Shown in pieces: positions 46,673-48,181 of a stretch of 64,000 nt of DNA. The DNA is taken from the NCBI GenBank assembly GCA_026993805.1, contig JALWSA010000018.1, positions 1 through 64,000 on the forward strand. The letters run 5' to 3'. The DNA is from Thermotogaceae bacterium. Its GTDB lineage: Bacteria; Thermotogota; Thermotogae; Thermotogales; Thermotogaceae. The notes beneath the pieces are model-generated. The model was not told the origin of the DNA and did not search any database. It saw only the letters and a list, made by a program, of their open reading frames with translations. Both the position numbers and the translations under genes were made by a program. How positions within the stretch are numbered: position 1 is the first letter of the stretch; each line of letters begins with the position of its first letter.

Positions 46673-46693
46673 GAGCCCCCGCGGCGGGGGCTC
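46673..46693. terminator. terminator between the PPC gene and trpB2
   Basis: GAGCCCCCG / CGGGGGCTC (46673-46681 / 46685-46693), CGG loop, no long T tract; overlaps the trpB2 stop. Confidence 0.65.
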
Positions 46694-47963
46694 ACGCATA
46701 AGCAGTAAGGTCATGAAGACCGTGACCGCTCAGAGTGAAAACGATGACCATCTCTCTTTTTTGCTCTTTGGCTTTCAGGGCGTACTCAACTGCTGCCGCT
46801 ATCGCGTGTGCCGACTCAGGAGCCGGCACGATCCCTTCAAGTTGCGAGAAAATCTTGGCATACTTGAAGGTCTCTTCTTGGGAATGGCTCTTTGGCGTTA
46901 TCATCCCTTCTTTCACCATGCGGGCGATTATCGGCGCCGAGCCGTGGTATCTCAAACCGCCCGCATGGATTTTTGGCGGAATGAAATCCTTCCCAAGGGT
47001 GTACATCTTGAGAAGCGGCGTAAGACCCGCACTGTCCCCGAAGTCGTACCTGTACTCTCCTTCGGTCAATGAAGGGCATGCTGTGGGTTCTGCTGCAACG
47101 AACTCGATGTCTTTTCCTGAGAGTTTTTCCGGAAGGAATGGAAGTATCGTACCGCCGAAATTCGAGCCGCCGCCGTGGCATCCTATTATCACATTTGGTT
47201 CTTTATCTCCTATTATCTGGAGCTGCTTCTTTATCTCCTGTCCTATGACGGTTTGGTGTAGAAGGACGTGGTTTAGAACGCTTCCCAAAGAATACCGCGT
47301 CTTTTCATCAGATAGTGCCACTTCCAGGGCTTCCGCTATGGCTATTCCGAGACTCCCGGGGTTTTCTGGGTCTTTCTGGAGTATCGATTTTCCGAAGGAA
47401 GTCTTCTCGCTCGGGCTGGGCGTGACCGAAGCACCGAAAAGGTTCATAAGGTACTTTCTCATCGGTTTTTGCTCATAGCTTATCTTGACCATGTAAACAT
47501 CAACGGGAATGTCGAACTTCTTTCCCGCGTAGCTCAGAGCGCTTCCCCACTGCCCCGCGCCCGTCTCAGTCACGAGCCTCTCCGTCCCGTCGATCTTGTT
47601 GTAGTAGGCCTGAGCGAGAGCCGTGTTCACCTTGTGGCTTCCCGTAGGGCTGACCCCTTCGTACTTGTAGTAGATCCGGGCGGGGGTTTGCAGGTACTCT
47701 TCAAGGTAGGTTGCTCGGAAGAGCGGGGTGGGCCTGTAAACCGCGTACTCTTTCAAAACTTCTTCGGGGATGGGTATGAACCTTTGGTCTGAAGCTTCCT
47801 GCTCGACGATCGGCCTTGGAAAGATCGCAAGGAGCTTTTCTGGCTTTATGGGCTTCATGGTCTCTGGATCGAGTGGTGGGTCGAGCTCGAAGGGAAGATC
47901 CGCCAAAGCGTTGTACCAACTCCTTGGAAGCTCCTCTGGTTTTAAATCCACCCTGACTCTCAT
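46692..47963 (-). CDS. trpB2: tryptophan synthase beta subunit, TrpB2 type
   Basis: 423 residues, about 25-30 longer than ordinary TrpB, with the TrpB2-specific N-terminal part (LPRSWYNALADLPFELDPPL). PLP lysine K111 lies in TGSHKVNTA; phosphate-binding loop CHGGGSNFGG; catalytic glutamate region ETGAGQWG. Makes tryptophan from indole and serine and, in TrpB2, typically works without TrpA. No trpA or other trp gene is adjacent. ATG 47963 follows AAGGGAGGTGG. A longer open frame starting at 48071 crosses the terminator hairpin and is not the protein. Controlled by the attenuator at 47987-48145. Confidence 0.93.
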   Translation of the reverse strand: MRVRVDLKPEELPRSWYNALADLPFELDPPLDPETMKPIKPEKLLAIFPRPIVEQEASDQRFIPIPEEVLKEYAVYRPTPLFRATYLEEYLQTPARIYYKYEGVSPTGSHKVNTALAQAYYNKIDGTERLVTETGAGQWGSALSYAGKKFDIPVDVYMVKISYEQKPMRKYLMNLFGASVTPSPSEKTSFGKSILQKDPENPGSLGIAIAEALEVALSDEKTRYSLGSVLNHVLLHQTVIGQEIKKQLQIIGDKEPNVIIGCHGGGSNFGGTILPFLPEKLSGKDIEFVAAEPTACPSLTEGEYRYDFGDSAGLTPLLKMYTLGKDFIPPKIHAGGLRYHGSAPIIARMVKEGMITPKSHSQEETFKYAKIFSQLEGIVPAPESAHAIAAAVEYALKAKEQKREMVIVFTLSGHGLHDLTAYA

Positions 47964-47986
47964 AAAACCACCTCCCTTAGAGTAAT

Positions 47987-48017
47987 AAAAAAGGGGCTCT
48001 GCAATACGCAGAGCCCC
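47987..48017 (-). terminator. intrinsic terminator in the trpB2 leader
   Basis: Minus strand: perfect 10-bp stem GGGGCTCTGC (48017-48008) / GCAGAGCCCC (48002-47993), GTATT loop, T6 (47992-47987), 24 nt before the trpB2 ATG. Confidence 0.92.
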
Positions 48018-48043
48018 GATCCGGCACGAAGAAACTCCCCGTG

Positions 48044-48139
48044 TCAGACCGGGGCCATTTTCCACCACCAATCGCTGCTAATGAGATTTACTTTGAAAAA
48101 TCCGAGCCTCTCTCTCAAACCTATTTCCCCCCACTTCAT
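48044..48139 (-). CDS. trpL: Trp leader peptide
   Basis: 31 codons from ATG 48139 to TGA 48046-48044. The peptide has Trp at residue 3 and three consecutive Trp at 24-26 (SSDWWWKMAPV); UGG codons at 48070-48062. Four Trp in 31 residues just before a terminator and a tryptophan synthase gene is the hallmark of a ribosome-sensing leader peptide. The ATG is only ~6 nt after the predicted transcription start with no SD, so either leaderless initiation or initiation at in-frame TTG 48118 (GGGGGGA upstream; 24 residues) is likely. Not in protein catalogues as far as I can tell. Confidence 0.7.
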   Translation of the reverse strand: MKWGEIGLRERLGFFKVNLISSDWWWKMAPV

Positions 48140-48151
48140 CTGTTTTGCGGG

Positions 48152-48181
48152 AGTATACCACGCCGCGGCGCAAGATGACAA
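48152..48181 (-). promoter_or_regulatory. promoter of the trp leader-trpB2 unit
   Basis: Minus strand TTGTCA (48181-48176), 18-bp spacer, TATACT (48157-48152) with extended -10 TGG. Confidence 0.7.

Follow-up and report, generated by a model that had tools for sequence, protein, structure and literature searches.

The lone trpB2 gene in a 64,000-nucleotide stretch of DNA from a Thermotogaceae bacterium (the whole stretch is called the window below) is in all probability preceded by a ribosome-mediated transcription attenuator that senses charged tRNA-Trp, with the gene product most likely making tryptophan from scavenged indole. A preliminary description of the sequence had proposed attenuation of the trp type for this single gene, and the proposal is supported by the sequence elements, by conservation throughout the phylum, by the coding frame of the leader with its starts in the Trp frame, by covariation and by the missing pathway genes, while a T-box, TRAP, TrpR or a known Rfam family found no support as rivals.

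The trpB2 gene and its upstream region

The features to which the text refers are the following.

46692-47963, minus strand: trpB2, encoding a 423-aa TrpB-like PLP enzyme, monocistronic
47968-47978, minus strand: Shine-Dalgarno sequence of trpB2, AAGGGAGGTGG
47987-48017, minus strand: intrinsic terminator (C:D), 10-bp perfect stem, loop GUAUU, U6 tail
48012-48056, minus strand: antiterminator (A:C), 12 + 8 bp, excludes the terminator
48037-48054, minus strand: hairpin I (A:B), CCCCG-loop-CGGGG, immediately 3' of the Trp codons, overlapping the leader stop
48046-48044, minus strand: leader stop codon UGA
48062-48070, minus strand: regulatory codons UGG UGG UGG, kept in leaders phylum-wide
48044-48118, minus strand: leader peptide ORF with probable TTG start, M(L)RERLGFFKVNLISSDWWWKMAPV and stop, 24 codons
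48139-48044, minus strand: longer leader ORF from ATG, MKWGEIGLRERLGFFKVNLISSDWWWKMAPV and stop, four UGG codons, three of them consecutive
48127-48132, minus strand: Shine-Dalgarno sequence of the leader ORF, GGGGGG, anti-SD duplex -9.3 kcal/mol, 8 nt before TTG 48118
48152-48160, minus strand: extended -10 element, TGG-TATACT (TATACT at 48157-48152), 18 nt spacer from TTGTCA
48176-48181, minus strand: -35 hexamer, TTGTCA

The product of trpB2 is a TrpB2 enzyme of the COG1350 type. It possesses the motifs HKVN and ETGAGQWG and matches the TrpB2 profiles NF009057 (685 bits) and TIGR01415 (680 bits) over their cut-offs, against 163 bits for the TrpB1 model TIGR00263, of which the cut-off is 392; among its best matches of solved structure are 4qys and 6hte, with chains named tryptophan synthase beta chain 2. 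The downstream neighbour is convergent, so the gene stands alone, and TrpA, TrpB1, TrpC and TrpF were not found in the genome to which the window belongs, which is 99% complete (the family searches were positive in a T. maritima control). Without meeting a stop codon, the trpB2 frame extends upstream as far as a TTG at 48071, within the leader region (46692-48071, minus strand); automatic annotation could wrongly stretch the gene over the attenuator. Because of the strong Shine-Dalgarno sequence before ATG 47963, this ATG rather than the TTG is taken as the start.

The promoter TTGTCA-18-TATACT that had been proposed on the minus strand is present, with a TG extension in addition. It is the best promoter upstream of the leader, with a consensus score of 10/12 that was not equalled when the upstream region was shuffled 50 times (mononucleotide shuffles, which preserve base composition only); transcription is predicted to start at about 48145. 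The alternative hairpins and the perfect 10-bp, T-tailed terminator that had been noticed before trpB2 are likewise present. The terminator (GGGGCTCTGC-GTATT-GCAGAGCCCC, then T6) has a folding energy of -21.2 kcal/mol, and its stem is 29 nt away from the trpB2 ATG. The GGCCCCG segment, for which two partners had been envisaged, can indeed form either the CCCCG/CGGGG hairpin or an antiterminator with the 5' arm of the terminator. In the latter, strand A (48056-48045, GGCCCCGGUCUG) is paired with strand C (48023-48012), 48043-48036 form an inner 8-bp helix with 48032-48025, and 6 nt of the terminator 5' arm are taken. The 162-nt leader RNA folds far more strongly than shuffled sequences (z = -4.85). 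Most of the RNA folding was calculated for 37 °C. For 80 °C, the terminator (-8.0 kcal/mol) and the antiterminator (-9.2 kcal/mol) of the window come out nearly equal.

The Trp codon run TGGTGGTGG occurs once in the whole window (at 48070-48062), the expectation being 0.2. The genome contains 18 further TGGTGGTGG runs, all within long ORFs except two (L162 and L163). These two were considered as a second Trp leader and dropped, as they have no evident link to Trp genes, and the scan of the remaining runs did not reveal a second Trp leader in this genome.

Conservation in Thermotogota

A TrpB2 search over 103 Thermotogota genomes was positive in 75, and the upstream regions were readable for 73; G001 and G005 were left out of the upstream count because contig ends cut their regions. 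An alignment of upstream regions had been suggested as a check on the attenuator, and the Trp codon run, its frame and the terminator turn out to be kept: a short ORF with an in-frame run of Trp codons, followed by a terminator, is found in 65 of the 73 regions (54 in a first set, nine additional ones, with G004 as WYWW, and two with an intervening gene, G067 and G069). Leaders with Trp codons occur in many genera and in most families of the class, and a GC-rich hairpin and T tract are retained in the relatives. The pattern that had been named as counter-evidence, loss of the Trp codons or the reading frame in close relatives while the terminator stays, was looked for phylum-wide, and this attempt at refutation failed.

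The eight trpB2 genes without a leader (G089-G096) belong to seven genomes of genus g4, which we take to be Thermotoga, and to one sister. TrpA is kept in the genomes of all eight; of the 65 trpB2 genes with a leader, nine are in genomes with TrpA over its cut-off and 56 are not. No probability is put on this contrast because the leaderless genomes are close relatives, which perhaps count as one loss.

In one of the genomes with an intervening gene (G067; L187, G067:C4:165400-167100), a WWWW leader with terminator is followed on the same strand by a gene for a Peripla_BP_6 ABC binding protein and then by trpB2, and it is possible that the two genes form an uptake-plus-synthesis unit. In the other (G069; L190, G069:C1:1929900-1932100), a 414-codon antisense ORF lies between the trp leader and trpB2; on reading its sequence, we presume that it resembles an IS110-type transposase.

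Start and translation of the leader peptide

The preliminary description gave a leader ORF of 31 codons with four UGG codons and considered leaderless initiation at ATG 48139 or initiation at TTG 48118. The ORF and its three consecutive UGG codons are present (C-terminal residues SSDWWWKMAPV, last base 48044), but the sequence indicates that the translated part probably extends from TTG 48118 and comprises 24 codons with three Trp. This is because ATG 48139, the less likely start, is only 6 nt from the predicted transcription start, whereas TTG 48118 has a Shine-Dalgarno sequence and agrees with the start positions in relatives, which are 30-69 nt before the Trp run and mostly have a good Shine-Dalgarno sequence. 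The predicted start of a promoter-like site lies about 68 nt (median) before the Trp run in the leaders.

A start equipped with a Shine-Dalgarno sequence is present in the Trp frame of 46 of the 54 leaders, compared with 3 and 0 in the other two frames. Ahead of the run, 10 or more codons are free of stops in the Trp frame of all 54 leaders, compared with 20 and 11 leaders for the other frames. Beyond WWW, conservation of the leader peptide between families is absent; the residues after the Trp run (SPP, CPD, GGCPP) are mostly dictated by the overlapping C-rich RNA strand.

Alternative pairings and covariation

Three helices that overlap one another are possible in the leaders. Hairpin I is local and lies near the Trp codons, A:C is a long-range helix, and part of strand C is also used by the terminator C:D. 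The sequences of the A:C helix differ strongly between families (CCCCGAUUCGG, GGCAAUUGUCC, CCGGUAUUCUGG, CCCUGAUGCUGAA), and the helix persists. Compensatory changes in the hairpins, which had been put forward as a further check, were found for the antiterminator in two groups: in a group of 15 leaders 92% of the A:C cells are paired, with 7 two-sided pairs, and in a group of 17 leaders 88%, with 4. Slid controls gave 25-57%, and the paired percentage was reached by none of 500 shuffles in either group, relatedness among the sequences remaining in them. Covariation was counted per lineage group, as a joint alignment of the three groups shifts one terminator by two columns. For hairpin I, covariation in the Pseudothermotoga-type group was no better than that of shuffles (171/500).

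In every lineage, the distance from the first nucleotide of the first Trp codon to the beginning of strand A is 11-15 nt. A ribosome with this codon in its A site would end at about this point, its footprint reaching about 12-13 nt from the A site. Ribosome-covered folding with the first Trp codon (W1) in the A site left C paired upstream, with a probability above 0.5, in 52 of the 54 leaders, and with the third (W3) in the A site this was the case in 8 of 54. With the ribosome at the stop codon, 19 of 54 leaders were still above 0.5 in an equilibrium model, partly via pairs outside strand A, and the ribosome-free equilibrium fold favoured the antiterminator in 46 of 54. The stop codon lies in or beside strand A in Thermotogaceae- and Pseudothermotoga-type leaders and beyond strand A in Fervidobacteriaceae-type leaders.

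Proposed mechanism and alternatives

From these properties we infer how the system responds to ribosome stalling, in which direction it regulates trpB2, and that the enzyme serves indole salvage. With plentiful tryptophan, the ribosome would traverse UGGUGGUGG up to the UGA codon (48046-48044) and cover strand A (48056-48045), which would leave C free for D, so that the terminator forms and transcription ends before trpB2. With scarce charged tRNA-Trp, the ribosome would stall when the first UGG occupies its A site, with its leading edge just short of strand A; the freed strand A would then pair with C before D is made, no terminator would form, and trpB2 would be transcribed. In Thermotogaceae- and Pseudothermotoga-type leaders, a ribosome at the stop codon would mask A and the terminator could form. 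In Fervidobacteriaceae-type leaders, termination more likely occurs via a re-formed hairpin I, which contains the Trp codons, and would have to rely on this because of the position of the stop codon.

A T-box, a riboswitch or a protein-binding attenuator of the TRAP type, with the UGG run being incidental, could likewise explain a terminator that has an alternative helix. The leader even has a GAGAGAG stretch that resembles a TRAP site, but the search for TRAP (PF02081) was negative in all 103 genomes and positive in a Bacillus subtilis control, and TrpR (PF01371) gave no match over cut-off in the phylum. In the window, all Rfam families stayed below their gathering scores. A permissive Rfam scan of the leader yielded no T-box, no Trp leader (RF00513) and no riboswitch; the matches that it did return were below gathering scores and were judged to be due to chance. 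Since the UGG run is in frame with a start that has a Shine-Dalgarno sequence, which also speaks against these classes, we regard regulation by any of them as extremely improbable.

It is also conceivable that the UGG repeat is conserved for RNA pairing, as strand 1 of hairpin I, and is not translated. This would suit Fervidobacteriaceae-type and Pseudothermotoga-type leaders, in which UGGUGG pairs with CCACC, and in the Fervidobacteriaceae type 88% of the hairpin I pairs are kept. In leaders of the Thermotogaceae type (that of the window and those of its nearest relatives), however, the hairpin I stem does not include the first two UGG codons, which are nonetheless invariant, so pairing alone cannot explain their conservation, and the strong preference of starts with a Shine-Dalgarno sequence for the Trp frame also makes an untranslated repeat very unlikely. 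Nascent-peptide arrest of the TnaC type, by which free tryptophan would be sensed and trpB2 induced when tryptophan is high, can hardly be expected to account for three to four consecutive Trp codons, which fit sensing of tRNA charging and not a single critical Trp; moreover, it is implausible that tryptophan induces a tryptophan-making enzyme. The leaders are short and contain Trp, as in TnaC, and many have prolines after the Trp run, but these come from the C-rich antiterminator strand, and the peptide outside WWW is unconserved between families. The probability of such an arrest system is next to negligible, and attenuation by ribosome stalling at the Trp codons is the preferred reading.

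Relation to known systems and function of TrpB2

The system follows the logic of the trp attenuator of E. coli, with its strands arranged somewhat differently, and is ordinary ribosome-mediated Trp attenuation. Shared with E. coli trpL are a leader peptide with consecutive Trp residues, a hairpin of the pause type, an antiterminator competing with an intrinsic terminator, and a promoter just upstream. Whereas trpL has two UGG codons and controls trpEDCBA, the leader described here has three and controls one salvage-type gene, its antiterminator strand closely follows the Trp codons within the leader ORF, TrpR over cut-off is lacking in Thermotogota, and Rfam models do not recognise the leader. 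Actinobacterial trp attenuators (Corynebacterium, Streptomyces) possess leader peptides with double or triple UGG and GC-rich terminators, and in C. diphtheriae an attenuator was predicted before the trpB2A operon, of which the first gene is called trpB2 (PMC1262725). Their targets are biosynthetic operons with trpB2 beside trpA, in contrast to the lone COG1350-type trpB2 found here in another phylum, with the pathway absent.

According to a 2010 survey (PMC2965389), leader-peptide systems had been known only from Proteobacteria and Actinobacteria until it added cases from Firmicutes. The leaders described here add a phylum-wide case in a largely thermophilic lineage and provide 65 natural variants for studying the drift of such switches. 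Attenuation of trpB2 in Thermotogota had been thought to be undescribed; this is apparently so for the open-licence literature, in which no account of leader-peptide Trp control in this phylum was found, and a description elsewhere is possible. The mechanism is already known; what appears to be new is the phylum, the single target gene and how large the family is.

Work on TrpB2_o enzymes is said to include that of Hettwer and Sterner in 2002. As far as the consulted passages of two papers go (PMC1854888; PMC11917138), these enzymes, which are of the same family as the product of the controlled gene, are found outside operons and no regulation is described for them, whereas here the control points to tryptophan supply. 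The same papers show that the role of stand-alone TrpB2 has been disputed between serine deaminase, another function and use of indole. In Pyrococcus horikoshii, a lone trpB2 outlived the loss of the other trp genes, which had been read as pointing to a different function (Merkl 2007; PMC1854888), a serine deaminase role was proposed for TrpB2 (PMC1854888), and later work (Busch 2014, as cited in PMC11917138) describes phosphoserine-dependent tryptophan synthase activity with a high indole affinity. Control through Trp codons in genomes without the rest of the pathway implies that TrpB2 is used to make tryptophan, and thereby supports, at the level of the sequence, tryptophan synthesis as the selected function of the lone enzyme. 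Under tryptophan shortage, it would most likely use scavenged indole together with serine or phosphoserine. We infer that environmental indole is the likely substrate, and the idea of indole salvage becomes directly testable.

Other leaders and tryptophan control

A WWW or WW leader with terminator is also present before trpE in Petrotoga-like genomes, G008, G015, G053, G057 and G002 (loci L165, L172, L180, L173, L167, L170, L178 and L176). The peptide and terminator are of the same kind as before trpB2, but the target is trpE and the whole pathway, and the leaders of trpE and trpB2 in G008 look almost like copies of one another. No leader was seen before trpE in the g4 operons sampled (G090, G092), nor in G089, G075, G077, G100 and G101. 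Because TrpR gave no match over cut-off and TRAP is missing in the phylum, attenuation may be the main tryptophan control in Thermotogota. There is about an even chance that leader-peptide Trp attenuation is an ancestral and general switch before trpE and trpB2 in this phylum, that lineages which lost the pathway kept a lone TrpB2 under it as a starvation-induced synthase for indole salvage, and that other genes recruited the leader, examples being an operon with aldehyde ferredoxin oxidoreductase and the gene of an ABC binding protein.

The former operon, encoding Fe-S proteins and an aldehyde ferredoxin oxidoreductase (PF02730/PF01314), is preceded in G002 by a WWW leader (MKKLRLSLNLKRNAKINSAWWWHRSLFFEGSRVAV and stop) with terminator (L181, G002:C43:400-3000, at about 100-290), a sequence arrangement that suggests tryptophan control of aldehyde ferredoxin oxidoreductase in this one genome. 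Most of the weak leader-model matches outside trp genes that were inspected had no Trp codons.

Outside the phylum, trpB2 genes of Bacteroidota (L074, L053, L095) have short upstream ORFs rich in Trp (YWWWR, WRWRW, WRWWR), followed by terminator-like hairpins, so trpB2 may have come under Trp control on more than one occasion. Three Rhodococcus trpB2 genes (L087, L088, L089) are preceded by a short ORF of the form MYHR(V/L)VT...WW(L/P)DR, with an inverted repeat nearby that has no clear U tract.
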